Below are positions 4,849 through 14,275 of a stretch of 14,275 bases of DNA, piece by piece. How positions within the stretch are numbered: position 1 is the stretch's first letter; the number at the start of each line of letters is the position of its first letter. Under the pieces are notes generated by a model, which worked only from the letters and a program-made list of their open reading frames with translations, was not told the DNA's origin and searched no databases. The translations under genes were made by a program, and so were the position numbers. Source of the stretch: Myxococcales bacterium (GTDB lineage: Bacteria > Myxococcota_A > UBA9160 > JALSIO01); NCBI GenBank assembly GCA_026989995.1, contig JALSIO010000570.1, positions 1 through 14,275 on the forward strand. The letters are read 5' to 3'.

Positions 4849-7800
4849 GTGCGCCTCTCCCAGATCTCCATCGAACGGCCGGTCCTCGCCACCGTCCTCT
4901 CCCTCGTGATCGCGCTCTTCGGCGCGCTCGCCGTGTTCCGCCTGCCCAACCGCGAGCTCCCAGACGTGGATCCCCCGGCGGTGACCGTCACCACCGTCTA
5001 TCCGGGCGCGGCTCCGGAGGTGGTGGAGACCTCCGTCACCGAGCCCCTCGAGGACGAGATCATCGGTATTCCCGGGGTCCGGCACGTGACCTCCGAGAGT
5101 CGCGAGGAGGTGTCGGAGATCCGCGTGGAGTTCGAGATCAGCCGGGATCTCGAGGCCGCCGCCAACGACGTGCGGGACCGCGTGGCTCGCGCGCGCCGCG
5201 CGCTGCCCGAGGACGCCGAGGAGCCGGTGGTCGCCAAGCGCAACGCCGACGACTTCCCCATCATCTGGCTCGCCCTCTACAGCGACCACCTCGACCAGAT
5301 CGCGCTCTCGAGCCTCGCCGACCGGAGCATTCGCGACCGCCTGGGAAAGCTGCCCGGGGTGGCCATGGTGCTCATGAGCGGCGAGCGGCGCTTTTCCATG
5401 CGGATCTGGATCGACGGCGAGCGACTCGTCGCCCAGGGGCTCACGGTGGCGGACGTGGCCGCTGCGCTCGAGCGCGAGAACGTGGACCTTCCCTCGGGCC
5501 GGCTCGAAGGCGCCGACCGCGAGTTCACCGTGCGGAGCCTCGGCGAGCTGCGGACGCCCACCGCCTTCGAGAGCCTGATCGTGGCCAACCGGGGCGGGCA
5601 GCCCGTCCGGCTCTCCGACGTGGCGCGGGTCGAGGTGGGTCCCGAGACCACCCGCAAGATCGTCCGCTTCAACGGCCGCCCCGCGGTGGGCCTCGGCGTG
5701 GTGAAGCAATCGAAGGCCAACACCCTCGACGTGGCCGATGCCGTCATGGCCGAGGTCGCCTCGCTGCGCCGCGAGCTTCCTCCGGGGGTGGTGCTGGAGA
5801 CGGCGTGGGACGGCTCGGCCTTCATCCGGGAGTCCATTCGCGACGTGGCGCGCACCATCCTCGAGGCCATCGGCCTCGTGGTGCTGGTGATCTACGCCTT
5901 CCTCCGCTCGGCCCGGGCCACGCTGATCCCGGCTGCGGCCATCCCGGTCTCCGTGCTCGGTGCCTTCGCCTTCCTCTACTTCACGGGCTTCAGCATCAAC
6001 ACCCTCACGCTGATGGGCCTGACGCTCGCCATCGGGCTCGTGGTGGACGACGCCATCGTGGTGCTCGAGAACGTGGCGCGCTGGGTGGAGGGCGGAACGC
6101 CCCCCGTCGAGGCTGCCCGGCGCGGGATGGGCGAGATCTCCTTCGCGGTGATCGCGGCGACCATCTCGGCGATCGCGGTCTTCGTGCCGCTCACCTTCCT
6201 CACCGACAAGACCGGGCGGCTCTTCCGGGAGTTCGCGGTGACCGTCGCCTCAGCCCTGGCGGTCTCCGGCTTCGTCGCCCTCACGCTCTCCCCCGCCCTC
6301 TGCGCGCTGATCCTCCGCGCCGAAGGCCAGGGGGGGAGGATCAAGCGCTTCCTCGGCCGGGCACTCGCGGCGCTGGGTCGGGCCTACACGGGCGGGCTCG
6401 ATCCGAGCCTGCGCCGCCGCGGCGCGGTGGTGCTGCTCGGGGTGCTCTGGGTGGCTGTCGGCGCCTGGCTCTACGGCCGTCTCGACGAGGAGCTCATTCC
6501 GAACTCGGACCGCGGCATGCTGGTGGCCTTCACCCGCGCACCCCAGGGCAGCACCATCGAGTACACGGACCGCTACCAGCAGCAAGCGGAGCGCGTCTTC
6601 CTCACCCACCCGGACGTGCAGCGGACCTTCTCCGTGGTGGCCCTCGGCATCGGCACCCCCGGCGTGGTGAACGAGGGCTTCTTCTTCGTGAGCCTCCGGC
6701 CGCGGGGGGAGCGCGCGACGCCGAGCCTTTCCGCGCTGCGGGACGAGATCCAGCGGGGTGTCGACCAGGTGCCCGGGATCGAGACCTTCGTGGTGGAGCC
6801 GAGGCCGATGCGGGGCCTCGGAGCGCCGGTGTCCCTCGTCCTCCAGGGGCCCGACGTCCACGAGCTTCACGGGTTCGGTCAGGCGCTCGTGGACCGCCTC
6901 GAGGCGACTCCCGGATTCCGCAACGTGCAGCTGGACCTGCACATGAACAAGCCACAGCTCGAGCTCGAAATCGACCGCGATCGCGCCAGCGACCTCGGCG
7001 TCTCCGTGCGGGACGTGGCCACCACCCTCCAGATCCTGCTCGGGGGCAAGGCGCTTTCGACCTTCAAGCTGGAGGGGGAGACCCATGACGTGATCGCCCA
7101 GCTCCCGCGGGCAGAACGGCAGCGGGCCGAGGACCTGCTCGGACTCTACGTGCGCGGGCGCGACGGGCAGCTCGTCTCGCTCTACTCGGTGGTCCGGGTG
7201 CGGGAGGCCGTGGCTCCCCGCTCGCTCCCGCACTACGATCGGCTTCGGAGCGCCAAGGTCACCGCGCGGCTCGGCGACGGCCTCTCCCAGGGGGCGGCGC
7301 TGGCCACCGCGCGCGCGCTGGCCGAGGAGATCCTGGCCGGCGCCGAGGGCTACCGCGTGGTCTTCGCCGAGGAGGCCGAGGACTTCTTCGAGTCCCAGAA
7401 CGCGCTGCTCTTCGCGTACGGCCTGGCGCTGGTCTTCGTCTTCCTGGTGCTCGCCGCCCAATTCGAGAGCTTCGTGCACCCGGTGATCATCCTGGTGGCG
7501 GTGGCGCTCTCCTTCACCGGCGCCCTGCTTGCGCTCTGGCTCATCGACCAGACCCTGAACATCTACTCGAAGATCGGCCTGGTGATGCTGGTGGGCCTCG
7601 TGACCAAGAACTCGATCCTGATCGTGGAATTCGCCAACCAGTTGCGGGCGCGCGGGGTCGGGCTTCTCGAGGCGACGCGGGAGGCAGCGCGCACCCGGTT
7701 CCGGCCCATCCTGATGACGGCGCTCGCGACCATCGCGGGCATTCTCCCCATCGCGCTCGGCCTCGGGGCCGGCGGCGAGTCCCGGGCACCGCTCGGCATC

Positions 7801-7938
7801 GCGGTGGCCGGGGGGATGGCCTTCTCGACGCTGCTCACCTTCTTCGTGGTCCCTGCCGTCTACCTCGCGGTGGAGGGCTTCCGCGAGGCCCGGCGCCGCA
7901 GGACCGCCGCGGTTCCGGCGCCGGCGGGGGCGCCGTGA
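4849..7938 (+). CDS. RND efflux transporter inner-membrane permease (HAE1/AcrB-type)
   Basis: Proton-driven inner-membrane pump of 1029 aa, close to the usual length of AcrB/MexB-type permeases. The N-terminus (RPVLATVLSLVIALFG) is transmembrane helix 1, followed by the periplasmic porter domain. The proton relay is intact: Asp400-Asp401 in the VVDDAIVVLEN helix (TM4) and Lys920 in the VTKNSILIVEFAN helix (TM10). Two repeats of six TM helices with large periplasmic loops are visible. The start GTG at 4849 has GAGGGA at 4838-4843 and 5 nt spacing, directly behind the adaptor stop. It pairs with that adaptor; an outer-membrane TolC-like channel is not encoded here and must be elsewhere. Downstream, uppP overlaps by 4 nt. 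Subfamily features fit drug/hydrophobic compound export (HAE1) rather than heavy-metal export (HME); the substrate is not deducible. Confidence 0.96.
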   Translation: MRLSQISIERPVLATVLSLVIALFGALAVFRLPNRELPDVDPPAVTVTTVYPGAAPEVVETSVTEPLEDEIIGIPGVRHVTSESREEVSEIRVEFEISRDLEAAANDVRDRVARARRALPEDAEEPVVAKRNADDFPIIWLALYSDHLDQIALSSLADRSIRDRLGKLPGVAMVLMSGERRFSMRIWIDGERLVAQGLTVADVAAALERENVDLPSGRLEGADREFTVRSLGELRTPTAFESLIVANRGGQPVRLSDVARVEVGPETTRKIVRFNGRPAVGLGVVKQSKANTLDVADAVMAEVASLRRELPPGVVLETAWDGSAFIRESIRDVARTILEAIGLVVLVIYAFLRSARATLIPAAAIPVSVLGAFAFLYFTGFSINTLTLMGLTLAIGLVVDDAIVVLENVARWVEGGTPPVEAARRGMGEISFAVIAATISAIAVFVPLTFLTDKTGRLFREFAVTVASALAVSGFVALTLSPALCALILRAEGQGGRIKRFLGRALAALGRAYTGGLDPSLRRRGAVVLLGVLWVAVGAWLYGRLDEELIPNSDRGMLVAFTRAPQGSTIEYTDRYQQQAERVFLTHPDVQRTFSVVALGIGTPGVVNEGFFFVSLRPRGERATPSLSALRDEIQRGVDQVPGIETFVVEPRPMRGLGAPVSLVLQGPDVHELHGFGQALVDRLEATPGFRNVQLDLHMNKPQLELEIDRDRASDLGVSVRDVATTLQILLGGKALSTFKLEGETHDVIAQLPRAERQRAEDLLGLYVRGRDGQLVSLYSVVRVREAVAPRSLPHYDRLRSAKVTARLGDGLSQGAALATARALAEEILAGAEGYRVVFAEEAEDFFESQNALLFAYGLALVFVFLVLAAQFESFVHPVIILVAVALSFTGALLALWLIDQTLNIYSKIGLVMLVGLVTKNSILIVEFANQLRARGVGLLEATREAARTRFRPILMTALATIAGILPIALGLGAGGESRAPLGIAVAGGMAFSTLLTFFVVPAVYLAVEGFREARRRRTAAVPAPAGAP

Positions 7939-8780: not shown

Positions 8781-10133
8781 TCAGGGCTCGAGGATCGGGT
8801 GCAGGCGCTGCGCCGGGATGGTCTCCCGGAGCTTCTTCAGCGCCCGGGCCTCGAGTTGGCGCACCCGCTCGCGGGAGAGCCCGAGCGATTGACCGATCTG
8901 CTCGAGGGTGTGCTCCTCCTCGCCCGAGAGCCCGTAGCGGAGCCGCAGGATGAGCTGCTCCCGGTCCGAGAGGTGGCCGATGAGCATGCCCACGCCGCTG
9001 CGCATCCGCTCGGCGTCGAGCCCGCCATCCGGCTGCGAGGTGCGGGGATCGGCCACGAAGTCCTCGAGCCGCTTCTCGGTGCCGGCCACCGACGACTCGA
9101 GCGAGATCGCCTCCCGCGAGAGCAGGTCCAGGGATTCGAGCGATTCGGCGTCGGTTCCGAGCGCCGGGGCGAGCTCGTGGGGCAGGGGCTCCCGCCCCAG
9201 CTTCCCGGTGAGCTCCGCGCGCACCCGCTGGCTTCGCTGGAGCCGGTCGTGCACGTGCGAGGGGAGCCGGATGGTGCGCGAGTGGTTCTGGATGGCCCGA
9301 ACCAGGGCCTGCCGGATCCACCACACGGCGTAGGTGGAGAACTTGAATCCGCGGCGGTGGTCGAACTTCTCGACCGCCCGGATCAGGCCGAGGTTGCCCT
9401 CCTGGATCAGGTCGGGAAAGGAGAGGCCGAGGTTGCGGTAGTCCTTGGCGATGGCGACCACGAGCTTCAGGTTGTGCTCGATGAACTGGTTCTTGACCCG
9501 CGTCATCCGCTCGTGGGCCGCCTCCACCGCGTTCGCGAGTTCGAGGATCTGGTCCTTGGTGACTCCGTAGCGGTCCTCGAAGTCCTTGAGCTTTCGGGTC
9601 CCCCGGCGGAGCCGGCGGGCCTCCCTTGCCAGCCGGAGGGTCCGATCGCGGAGCTCGGCGAGGACCGCCAGCGAGAGGTGGGCCGAAGCGAGGTCCCGGG
9701 ACATCCGCGCGTCGATCCGGCGGATCTCGGCGCGGGCGCGGCGCTGCCAGGCCTTCTCGCGCTGGGCGAGCTGGCGCCGAAGCCGGCGCACGGCGCGCTC
9801 CACCCGCGCTGCGATCTCGCCGGTCTCCTCGTCCCCCACCGATTCGCTCAGCTTCGCGCCGGTGTGGGAGAGGGCGCGGAGGGCATCCCAGCGCTCGATC
9901 ACGTGCATGGCGGATACGGGGACGGCGTAGAGCGCCTCCCGGAGCGCGGCGGTGGCCGCCTCGAGCTCCTTCGCGAGCATGACCTCCTCTTCGCGTCGGA
10001 GCGTCCGCGTGCCGCCGATCTCCTGGAAGTACGACTCGAGCGGGCGTCGCTCGCGTCCCGGATCGGGATCGTCGGCGGGCGCCACCGGCGCGGGGCGGCT
10101 GGCGGCGCGCGGCGCGGACTCCGAAGAGCGCAT
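8781..10133 (-). CDS. RNA polymerase sigma factor, sigma-70 family (RpoD/RpoS-like, no region 1.1)
   Basis: Sigma-70 group 1/2 factor, 450 aa, giving promoter specificity to RNA polymerase. Region 1.2 is [10 protein letters not shown] (31-40); region 2 runs about 210-300 and includes [14 protein letters not shown], the [10 protein letters not shown] core-binding block (241-250) and the [11 protein letters not shown] -10 recognition helix (265-275); region 3 is about 300-375; region 4 includes [15 protein letters not shown] (388-402) and the helix-turn-helix ending [18 protein letters not shown] (419-436). Between 1.2 and 2.1 sits a spacer of roughly 150 residues rich in Arg and Ala. Region 1.1 is absent, which argues for a group 2 factor or a short primary factor. 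The ATG at 10133 is chosen because AAGGA lies 5 nt upstream and GGAGG just before that; an ATG at 10166 would add 11 residues. The open frame back to 10601 lacks sigma homology. Confidence 0.93.
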
Positions 10134-10333
10134 CGAGGTCCTTTCCTCCAGCTTCACGTGCCTCATCCCCTGGTCCGGCCGGTGCAGGCCCGGCCCCGGT
10201 GCGCCCGGGTCCCGTCCCACCGGACCGTCTCTGCGGTGCGCGATCCGGCGCACTGCGGTTTCCGGGAGGGTCTCCCCTCCCTCGTTGGCTGCCTCGACCG
10301 GGTCCGGGTCCGGATCGCTCCGACCCGCCCGTC

Positions 10334-10366
10334 CGTCCGGCCCGTCCGGCCCGTCCGGCCCGTCCG
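10334..10366. repeat. 9-bp tandem repeat, three perfect copies plus a partial one
   Basis: CGTCCGGCC repeats at 10334-10342, 10343-10351 and 10352-10360, then a broken fourth copy CGTCCG. It lies about 200 nt upstream of the sigma-factor start in non-coding DNA. The short unit and lack of spacers make it a microsatellite-like slippage tract rather than a functional array. Confidence 0.8.
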
Positions 10367-10670
10367 TCGGGCCCGTGCGGCCGGCCCGTGCGGCCCCCCG
10401 ACTCCCCCGCGGTGCCGCGTGGCGGTGGCTCCACGGGGTGGGCCGGGCGCGAGGGCGTCCCCGAGCCCCGCCGCAATCCGCTCGCCATCGACCGGGTCGG
10501 CGGCCCGTCCCGCCGGGGAGACTCCCGGGAGGAGCCTGGCTTCGCCCGCGTCGGTCGCGGAGGGGCGCCCTAGCATGCGCGCTTCTGCTTCCCCTTTCCA
10601 CCCAAATCTCGATCCGTCAGTCAGTCGGCCTCCCTGAAAGGGGGATTTGCCCGGAAAGGCGCTGCAAAAT

Positions 10671-12228: not shown

Positions 12229-13388
12229 CCGGTGGCGTGGCGCTTCGGGACCGCACCGCCATCGCCGGGATCGGGCAGACGCGCTTCGGCCGGGGGCTCC
12301 CGGAATCGGAGCTCGAGCTCGGCTGCCTCGCCGTGGCCGAGGCCATCGCCGATGCCGGACTCGACCCCTCGGAGGTCGACGGTGCGGTGATCTTCTCGAT
12401 GGAGGACGGACGGGAGGTGCAGCTCGCCCGCTCCGTGGGGCTCGGAGACCTGCGCTTCTTCGCCGAGGTCGGCTACGGCGGTGGCGCCGGGTGCGCGACG
12501 GTGGGGCTCGCCGCCCTCGCGGTGGCGAGCGGGCAATGCGAGGTGGCCGTGGCCTGGCGGGCCCGGAAGCGCGCGGCGCCGAGCAGCCGACCCTGGGCCC
12601 GGGTGGAGGCGCGGGTCGGGGGGGACTTCCAGTGGACCCGCCCCTTCGGCCTGCTGCGCCCGGTGGACGAGATCGCCATGCTCACCCGCCGCTACATGCA
12701 CGAGTACGGGGCCACCCGCGATCACCTCGCCAACGTGGCCCTCGCCTGCCGGAAGCACGCCAACCGCAACCCCCGGGCCGTGATGCACGACCGGCTGCTC
12801 ACCCGGGAGCAGTACATGGAGTCCCGCTGGATCTCCGAGCCCCTCTGCCTCTTCGACAACTGCCTCGAGACGGACGGAGCCCTCGCCTGCGTGGTGGTCT
12901 CGGCGGAGCGGGCGCGCGACCTGCGCCACCCCCCGGTCTACATCCACAGCTACGCGCAGGGCCTCCCCCGCCAGCACCAGGTGATGACCAACTACTTCTG
13001 CGAGGATCCGCTGCGCGGGCCGAGCCACGTCTGCTCCGAGCGCCTCTTCGGTGCTGCGGAGTTCGGGCCCGGCGACGTGGACGTGGCCCAGATCTACGAC
13101 GCCTTCACGCCCCTGATCCCTCTCTCCCTCGAAGGCTACGGCTTCTGCGGGAGGGGCGAGGGCGCCGCGTTCACCGAGGAGGGTGCGCTCGAGTGGCCCG
13201 ACGGCCGCCTGCCGATCAACACCTCGGGGGGTGGCCTCTCCGAGGCCTACGTGCACGGTTTCAACCTGATCCTCGAGGGCGTGCGCCAGATGCGCGGGAC
13301 CTCGACCTGCCAGGTGGAAGGCGCCGAGACCTGCCTCGTCACCAGCGGAGAGGGCGTGCCCACCAGCGCGCTCCTCCTCCGGAGCTAG
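12225..13388 (+). CDS. Thiolase-superfamily protein, Ltp2/SCP2-thiolase-like (probable non-thiolytic aldolase)
   Basis: A 387-aa thiolase-fold protein of the lipid-transfer/SCP2-thiolase branch. By eye alignment the catalytic thiolase residues are replaced: the nucleophile Cys position falls on Gly86 (in YGGGAGCA, 84-91), the Asn of NEAF is Tyr291 (IYDAFT), the His of GHP is Tyr342 (SGGGLSEAYVHG, 334-345), and the C-terminal Cys position is about Leu371. Tyrosines at these last two motifs are the pattern reported for the steroid side-chain aldolase Ltp2, which works with a DUF35 partner in retro-aldol cleavage of a hydroxyacyl-CoA. The DUF35 gene follows 3 nt downstream. ATG at 12225 overlaps the stop of the dead oxidoreductase and matches the family start (DRTAIAGIGQTRFG); its ribosome site is weak. 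An in-frame open stretch reaches 11076 but is antisense or pseudogene. The substrate is unknown; sterol or other branched acyl-CoA is an inference. Confidence 0.9.
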   Translation: MTGGVALRDRTAIAGIGQTRFGRGLPESELELGCLAVAEAIADAGLDPSEVDGAVIFSMEDGREVQLARSVGLGDLRFFAEVGYGGGAGCATVGLAALAVASGQCEVAVAWRARKRAAPSSRPWARVEARVGGDFQWTRPFGLLRPVDEIAMLTRRYMHEYGATRDHLANVALACRKHANRNPRAVMHDRLLTREQYMESRWISEPLCLFDNCLETDGALACVVVSAERARDLRHPPVYIHSYAQGLPRQHQVMTNYFCEDPLRGPSHVCSERLFGAAEFGPGDVDVAQIYDAFTPLIPLSLEGYGFCGRGEGAAFTEEGALEWPDGRLPINTSGGGLSEAYVHGFNLILEGVRQMRGTSTCQVEGAETCLVTSGEGVPTSALLLRS

Positions 13389-13391
13389 GCC

Positions 13392-13829
13392 GTGTCGCGC
13401 TCACTCATCCTTCCCGATCCCGCCGATCCGGACAGCGCCTTCTTCTGGGAGGGAACGGCGCGCGGCGAGCTCCGGGTGCAGGTGTGCGGGCGCTGCCGGC
13501 GCCGACGCCACCCGCCGCGGCCCATGTGCCCCTTCTGCCGCTCCGCCGAGCGGGGCTTCGAGGTCCTCTCGGGCCGGGGCCGGATCTGGTCGTTCGTGGT
13601 GGCCCACCCCCCGCTGCTCCCGGCCTACGCCGAGCTCGCTCCCTACAACGTGATCGCCGTGGCCCTCGAGGAGGATCCGACCCTCCGGCTGGTGTCGAAC
13701 CTGGTGCCCGGGCCGGGGGCCGCCCCGGGCGAGGTGGACCCGGCCGGGATCCGGATCGGGGAGCCGGTCCGGGCGATCTTCGAGCCGGTGGAGGACGTCT
13801 TCCTGCCGCGCTTCGTCCGGGAGGGCTGA
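13392..13829 (+). CDS. Zn-ribbon/OB-fold DUF35 protein, partner of the thiolase-like protein
   Basis: A 145-aa DUF35 protein: an N-terminal helix with FFWEG (17-21) typical of the family, a rubredoxin-like zinc ribbon with Cys32, Cys35, Cys46 and Cys49 (CxxC-x10-CxxC), then an OB-fold barrel (about 56-140) with the GRIWSFVVAHPPLLPAYA segment. Proteins of this family form complexes with thiolase-superfamily enzymes such as Ltp2 and shape their acyl-CoA site. GTG at 13392 has GGAG at 13381-13384 with 7-nt spacing and lies 3 nt after the thiolase stop, so the two should be produced together. A strong hairpin follows at 13849. Identity is well supported; the exact substrate is not. Confidence 0.92.
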   Translation: MSRSLILPDPADPDSAFFWEGTARGELRVQVCGRCRRRRHPPRPMCPFCRSAERGFEVLSGRGRIWSFVVAHPPLLPAYAELAPYNVIAVALEEDPTLRLVSNLVPGPGAAPGEVDPAGIRIGEPVRAIFEPVEDVFLPRFVREG

Positions 13830-13942: not shown

Positions 13943-14275
13943 TCAGCCCGCTTCGGCCTCCTGGCCGATCCCGGCGAGGATGGCCTCGAGGGCGGCGTCG
14001 GCGATGGCGCGCATCTCCTCGTCGGTCCGGTCCTGGATGGGGTGGGGTACGTAGACCGCGGCCGGGTCCACACCGAGGGCGCGGGCCTGCGCGAGGGCTC
14101 CATCCTGGAACTCCACCGTGGCGACGAAGAGCCCCGGCACCCCGAGGGTCTCGAGCTCCGCCATGTCGTGCACACTGCACGACGTGCAGCTTCCTCAGTC
14201 GGCGAGGGCCTCGATCACGGCTTCGCAGCGGCTCGCGATCTCCTGGCGCAGGTCGATCGGCGCCGGCTTGGTGAA
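13943..14275 (-). CDS. UGSC-family selenoprotein, 5' end beyond the window; TGA at 14195-14197 read as selenocysteine
   Basis: Read from the right edge on the minus strand, one frame runs for 110 codons with a single internal TGA (complement of 14195-14197) and ends at 13943. Before the TGA it encodes FTKPAPIDLRQE and then VIEALAD; the TGA is followed by Gly-Ser-Cys, giving U-G-S-C, then TSCSVHD and MAELETLGVPGLFVATVEF. This matches the UGSC family of (seleno)proteins, in which Sec (or Cys) in U/C-G-S-C is the presumed redox site and the HD-x-x-ELE-x-x-G-x-P block follows. A second Cys lies at TSC. The C-terminal half includes YVPHPIQDRTDEEM. A SECIS-like hairpin sits at 14165-14183. Truncation here is only by the window edge. 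A GTG at 14173 would give a 76-aa protein without the motif and is not credible. Reaction and substrate of the family are, to my knowledge, not established. Sec decoding requires selA/B/C/D elsewhere in the genome. Confidence 0.88.
14165..14183 (-). promoter_or_regulatory. Bacterial SECIS-like hairpin downstream of the UGA codon
   Basis: On the minus strand GTCGTGCA (14183-14176) and TGCACGAC (14172-14165) are perfect inverse repeats. Paired as 7 bp they leave loop AGUGU, with G as the second loop base; the loop starts 18 nt after the UGA. This fits the published bacterial SECIS rules (apical loop roughly 16-37 nt after UGA with a G among its first two bases), which is where SelB binds. Note that the element lies within the coding sequence, as is normal in bacteria. 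Confidence 0.7.

Follow-up and report, generated by a model that had tools for sequence, protein, structure and literature searches.

A UGSC-family gene with a predicted selenocysteine codon and a conserved upstream partner in a Myxococcales bacterium: a candidate subunit of a two-part selenoenzyme

We analyzed a stretch of 14,275 nucleotides from a Myxococcales assembly (hereafter the window), at whose end an in-frame UGA interrupts a gene on the minus strand. By profile and motif the product of this gene is a UGSC-family protein, of which the window holds the C-terminal portion, and its UGA at 14197-14195 almost certainly encodes selenocysteine (Sec). Comparison with relatives supports the Sec codon, a hairpin just downstream of it and a linkage to an upstream partner gene. 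In the reading that we consider likely, the protein contains Sec and serves as the small redox subunit of an enzyme made of two parts, the other being the product of this overlapping partner gene.

The window gene and its in-frame UGA

The gene has the following features.

13943..14275, minus strand: UGSC-family selenoprotein gene, 3' part, 110 codons with the UGA read as Sec, plus stop
14195..14197, minus strand: in-frame TGA, predicted selenocysteine codon (from the translation and relatives)
14186..14197, minus strand: U-G-S-C motif
13943..13945, minus strand: terminal stop, also TGA

Translated on the minus strand from 14275, the gene reads FTKPAPIDLRQEIASRCEAVIEALAD-UGA-GSCTSCSVHDMAELETLGVPG...EAG, with the frame open past the UGA to the stop at 13945-13943. 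With the TGA read through, the product matched PF24696 (UGSC; E 1.7e-25, 90.5 bits, cut-off 25), and the U/C-G-S-C motif is present at the Sec codon. The initial annotation had noted a coherent frame on both sides of the TGA and the placement of this codon exactly at the U of the motif, and both observations held. Against the NF041046 profile ("UGSC family (seleno)protein") the window fragment scored 105.8 bits and so fell short of the cut-off of 125; the match begins at profile position 43, and the first 42 positions fall outside the window, leaving the fragment without its N-terminus. Searches of the window against Rfam and PHROGs gave no match, and no UGSC relatives were found in the viral contigs searched.

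The 5' end beyond the contig edge, which the initial annotation had proposed to recover, was found within the source genome (3.83 Mb in 824 contigs, 89.9% complete) through an overlap with a second contig, C377.

14123..14275: overlap with C377 (locus L022, 1-153), 152 of 153 bases identical (one mismatch)

The C377 sequence was considered as a paralogue, being a second UGSC match, and this was rejected: because its first 153 bases match the window end with one mismatch and hold the TGA, the two contigs carry one gene between them, and C377 supplies the gene start. The whole protein, joined from the window and C377, begins MSTATPAPAARVLLDPTGE and has about 184 residues. Since C377 also reads TGA at the Sec codon, a sequencing error there is unlikely.

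The codon at the Sec position across relatives

Among named genomes, 285 relatives were confirmed by scanning, and all of the best 80 that were kept have TGA at the Sec codon with the frame open downstream. In a survey of 90 genomes of the same class as the window genome, exactly one TGA was present in 136 of 138 strong matches, a count in which split genes enter as two pieces (the window's own half is one such piece). With the codon recurring in this way, chance nonsense at this one position is as improbable as initially judged. The two matches without TGA belong to one genome (G083) and have the Cys codons TGT and TGC; besides these two copies (G083:C265; L150, L224), the genome has a Sec copy. 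Ten of the 148 class rows were left out of the count as weak or decayed, namely a decayed copy in two pieces on G077:C28, a match on G043:C42 (24.3 bits, one TGA) and seven rows with no stop at 21.1-37.5 bits; some of these seven may be distant relatives that lack Sec. One of the G077 pieces (C28:16826-17242) contains two TGA and one TAG and is apparently decayed.

We also examined, at the protein level, 120 listed proteins of 897 database matches. Of these proteins, 104 stop at the ALAD-type residues preceding the UGA; gene calling therefore does cut UGSC genes, as had been predicted for the window gene. Another 12 continue through with Cys (6), Trp (2), Arg (1) or Gly (3) according to the motif used by the script, and the remaining four fall into neither group, although two of them align with Cys at the position. 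The expectation of Sec or Cys at the aligned position was thus correct for the relatives, with W, R or G in six of the 120 listed proteins. In a diverged set (A6, 23 rows), every residue varies apart from U, G and C in UGxC and a single downstream Gly, and strong UGSC copies number up to eight per genome among the 90 class genomes. Passages of a report on Geodermatophilaceae describe UGSC-motif selenoproteins alongside a tRNA-Sec with a CUA anticodon (PMC5330540), an independent sign that the family takes Sec.

Upstream partner gene

The initial annotation drew attention to a convergent thiolase-like/DUF35 gene pair as genomic partners of the UGSC gene. The window genes concerned, together with others named from a reading of their translations, are as follows.

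12234-13388, plus strand: lipid-transfer/thiolase-like protein (NF005892, 525.9 bits), convergent to the UGSC gene
13392-13829, plus strand: ChsH2-type zinc-ribbon/OB (DUF35) protein (PF12172, PF01796), convergent to the UGSC gene
159-1988: BipA/TypA GTPase
4849-7938: RND-type efflux pump
8781-10601, minus strand: sigma-70-type factor

The pair was ruled out as a functional partner, with tblastn matches to its two members in only one and none, respectively, of 140 fetched UGSC loci. The sole general neighbour found (135 of these 140 loci) is instead a gene that lies beyond the window edge on C377, upstream of the UGSC gene and overlapping it by ATGA. Its product of about 483 residues combines a thioredoxin-like N-terminus containing CPTC with a core of about 340 residues. 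The thioredoxin part weakly matched TIGR01068 (E<=0.1 for 16 of 21 members, the lowest being 1.3e-4) and matched thioredoxins in the PDB down to E 2.4e-4. The core gave no convincing match in Pfam, NCBIfam or the PDB.

This partner is upstream in 78 of the 80 named loci (best 80 of 285); of the other two, L098 has no room for it and in L052 it is absent from the 657 bases available. A 4-base overlap with the UGSC gene was counted in 26 of the 78, with start codons chosen by script. Across the 90 class genomes, both genes occur in 67, the partner only in two (in each of which it runs into a contig end), UGSC only in none, and neither in 21. A partner match lies on the same strand within 1500 bases of 127 of the 138 UGSC matches (105 upstream, 22 downstream) and was not found within that distance for the other 11, one of which is the half gene in the window, where the contig stops. 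All 122 placed cases have the two genes on the same strand.

Partner ORFs were recovered from the 140 loci in 138 instances; the thioredoxin part is present in 83, absent in 54 and partial in one, with the 60 class loci hand-picked and rich in diverged copies. Seven partners lacking this part (L179, L186, L193, L199, L204, L208, L210) have C-G-P-x-G-C at the N-terminus, a stretch that is perhaps a replacement redox pair. Fusions occur in both orders. Three proteins join the core to UGSC (P0247, P0263, P0275) and end where the UGA would be, and four loci (L155, L185, L213, L115) join UGSC to the core in a single frame with one UGA inside. On these sequence comparisons, UGSC and its upstream partner probably form an enzyme together.

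Fold of the UGSC protein

A single AlphaFold2 model of the UGSC protein (pLDDT 89.3, pTM 0.84) has the element order H-E-H-E-H-E-[U]H-E-H-E-H, in which five strands alternate with helices. The modeled Sec follows strand 3 and directly precedes a helix, and a selenol placed there would have a lowered pKa. The sequence gave no worthwhile match to solved structures.

The model bears on an alternative in which UGSC acts alone, as a thioredoxin-like thiol/selenol oxidoreductase such as a peroxidase, and shares no more than a transcript with the partner. A thioredoxin-like fold is given as likely in passages of PMC2398784, and both the UxxC motif and the 11 of 138 matches without an adjacent partner match are compatible with independent action. 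However, the fold in our model does not look thioredoxin-like, as its five strand-helix alternations differ from the thioredoxin order, and the strict co-occurrence and the fusions tie UGSC to its partner. We therefore consider a stand-alone oxidoreductase unlikely.

Selenocysteine machinery

A search for Sec machinery, proposed in the initial annotation, gave a mixed result in the window's own genome. The selA (C581, 500.9 bits) and selB (C203, 289.9 bits) genes both scored above their cut-offs, whereas neither selD nor tRNA-Sec, with 150 of 712 first-look candidates scored, was found in the assembly at 89.9% completeness. A weak "selD" match on C7 proved to be the thiamine-phosphate kinase ThiL. 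Among 13 tRNA-Sec matches, the eight loci inspected were tRNA-Ser and others, and the best DNA match to tRNA-Sec was the tmRNA. The missing selD and tRNA-Sec, the weakest point of the Sec case, are likely assembly gaps. In a set of 40 genomes, 29 have UGSC, and of these 24 have tRNA-Sec, 24 selD and 28 selA; three of the 29, the window's genome among them, have neither tRNA-Sec nor selD.

Some Sec genes lie close to UGSC itself. Within the fetched stretch of the 80 named loci (best 80 of 285), tRNA-Sec was found in seven, selB in seven and selA in six, and four loci (L041, L083, L084, L099) contain tRNA-Sec, selA, selB, the partner and UGSC together. In some Acidimicrobiia, UGSC is thus directly linked to Sec genes. 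This proximity would fit a gene pair that serves selenium metabolism itself, in delivery, storage or as an accessory of the Sec machinery. Such a role is quite improbable in view of the up to eight strong copies per genome, the catabolic-looking genes that adjoin the class loci, and the same-order genomes without UGSC that still have tRNA-Sec (5 of 11), selD (8 of 11) and selA (8 of 11). The neighbours in the 60 class loci, named from a reading of their sequences and given as raw counts, include P450 (13), CoA-transferase (12), short-chain dehydrogenase (9), D-aminoacylase-like amidohydrolase (7) and enoyl-CoA hydratase (7).

A hairpin downstream of the UGA

A bacterial SECIS-type hairpin can be drawn just 3' of the window UGA.

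14165..14183, minus strand: GUCGUGCA-GUG-UGCACGAC, 8 bp with a 3-nt loop beginning G-U, UGA-to-loop distance 19 nt

This hairpin satisfies the bSECIS model as given in passages of PMC13188914 (a stem of 4-16 bp, a loop of 3-9 nt with G at its first or second position, 16-37 nt of spacing, MFE <= -7.5). A 51-nt fold reached -20.5 kcal/mol, equalled in stability by 5 of 200 shuffles, and the hairpin is within the minimum 51-nt fold in 121 of 148 distinct sequences and in 62 of 69 when the named sequences plus the window are taken. A 104-nt fold has a different minimum structure (z -0.35), which counts against the hairpin.

Codon choice provides a further line of evidence. In 81 sequences, with codons counted from the UGA, synonymous choice is nearly frozen at +4 to +8 and at +10, with z of -13.3 (Thr), -18.8 (Ser), -6.5 (Cys), -22.5 (Ser), -11.9 (Val) and -21.2 (Asp) in that order, values that, like the shuffles used for pairing, overstate the effect as the sequences are related. 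Ser at +7 occurs in 70 rows and is always encoded by AGT, and at the intervening His (+9) choice is free (z -0.8). Codons outside the hairpin mostly vary as expected, with dips at -15, -2 and -1 (z -7.1, -6.5 and -5.2); because such dips occur upstream of the UGA, the Cys value at +6 is unremarkable alone.

Pairing was scored over 144 distinct Sec sequences, diverged paralogues included, and was formed in 1065 of 1152 cells; 500 shuffles reached at most 1001 cells and slid partners 100-651. All seven outer pairs are formed in 102 of the 144 sequences. At pair 20-26, 120 sequences have C-G and 19 have G-C; at pair 18-28, 119 have T-A, seven C-G and seven A-T. Changes on both sides numbered 50 in the hairpin and 46 at slide +3 and are not decisive alone; because this count was nearly equalled by one slide, the case rests on the pairing and the codon freezing. 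The two G083 Cys copies keep four and five of seven hairpin pairs. Their use as a hairpin control was dropped, as they are two genes only with pairing partly retained, and since 22 of the 144 Sec sequences also form five or fewer pairs, they give no firm control. Overall, these comparisons support a Sec insertion hairpin for the UGSC gene.

That the UGA is a true stop, in a pseudogene or a gene for a short product, is scarcely credible: standard gene calling ends 104 of the 120 listed proteins at this point and neither selD nor tRNA-Sec was found in the 89.9% complete genome, but the same codon with an open frame behind it recurs in all 80 named loci (best 80 of 285), the synonymous codons just past it are nearly frozen, and the hairpin pairing is retained in diverged copies.

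Comparison with known systems

UGSC proteins are an established selenoprotein family in the passages available from PMC2398784, PMC9312934 and PMC13188914. The window protein shares the motif, Sec codon, length and domain of the UGSC-containing family (NF041046, PF24696; passages of the GOS survey PMC2398784), and no tested feature separates it from that family. NF041046 was matched at E<=0.01 by 29 of 29 scanned members of set A3 and by 23 of 23 of A6. A fusion of UGSC with "Unknown_1" is reported in the same text of PMC2398784 (2008), and "Unknown_1" is probably the partner core described here. The UGSC passages of the papers found in the open-licence literature give no function and mention no adjacent partner gene, and nothing was found in print on the UGSC-partner gene pair within that literature. 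What we add to the known family is the partner linkage, the conservation of the hairpin and a model that is not thioredoxin-like.

A more distant resemblance is to GrdB/F/H, for which passages of PMC6778437 and PMC13188914 give a UxxCxxC motif that the window protein also has, whereas in diverged UGSC copies the last C is replaced by W, R, S, G or A. The selenoprotein B profile (TIGR01917) was weakly matched at E<=0.01 by 15 of 29 A3 members (best E 4.2e-5) and by four of 23 in A6, with UGSC proteins of about 180 aa set against a profile of 431 positions. Membership of the window protein in GrdB/PrdB was rejected on profile cut-offs (TIGR01917, 20.1 bits versus 602.2; NF040794, 20.9 versus 800), PF07355 (the Pfam GrdB family) was not among its Pfam matches, and we keep the resemblance as a lead. 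These sequence matches suggest a remote tie of UGSC to reductases that cleave organic substrates. The partner N-terminus shares CPTC/CxTC and weak profile matches with the thioredoxin family; unlike thioredoxins, the partner adds the core of about 340 residues, which also occurs without the thioredoxin part.

Proposed mechanism and significance

We propose a two-part selenoenzyme because of the weak GrdB-type matches, the number of paralogues, the neighbours in the class loci and the U-C pair. That pair is the likely redox centre, as A6 keeps nothing unchanged beyond the U, G and C of the UGxC motif and a single Gly. The UGA would be decoded as Sec by SelB and Sec-tRNA, directed by the hairpin immediately downstream, and the resulting protein would act as the small redox subunit beside the product of the upstream overlapping gene. 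We infer the complex, its electron path and its reaction type. The partner's N-terminal CPTC module probably reduces a selenenylsulfide between the U and C of UGSC, and its core probably binds the substrate, so that core and UGSC would do the substrate work and the thioredoxin part, where present, would be a built-in reductant. The enzyme most likely reduces an organic substrate or cleaves it reductively, for which the Sec-bearing B subunit of glycine and proline reductases offers a loose analogy, as a lead only.

A wider reading is, in our judgment, about evenly balanced between right and wrong: UGSC proteins may descend, distantly, from the Sec domain of glycine/proline reductase B and supply the selenium-bearing part of two-part selenoenzymes that form a large, so far unrecognised class, in which the partner has a new fold and several paralogues per genome act on different substrates in catabolic neighbourhoods. 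Most of the listed database entries (104 of 120) hold only half of the UGSC protein. It is the partner linkage that merits follow-up, and carriers include apparently cultured strains (Desertimonas flava, Ilumatobacter nonamiensis and Acidiferrimicrobium sp.). With a co-occurring partner that brings a reducing module and is fused to UGSC in both orders, an "unknown selenoprotein" becomes a testable two-subunit enzyme.
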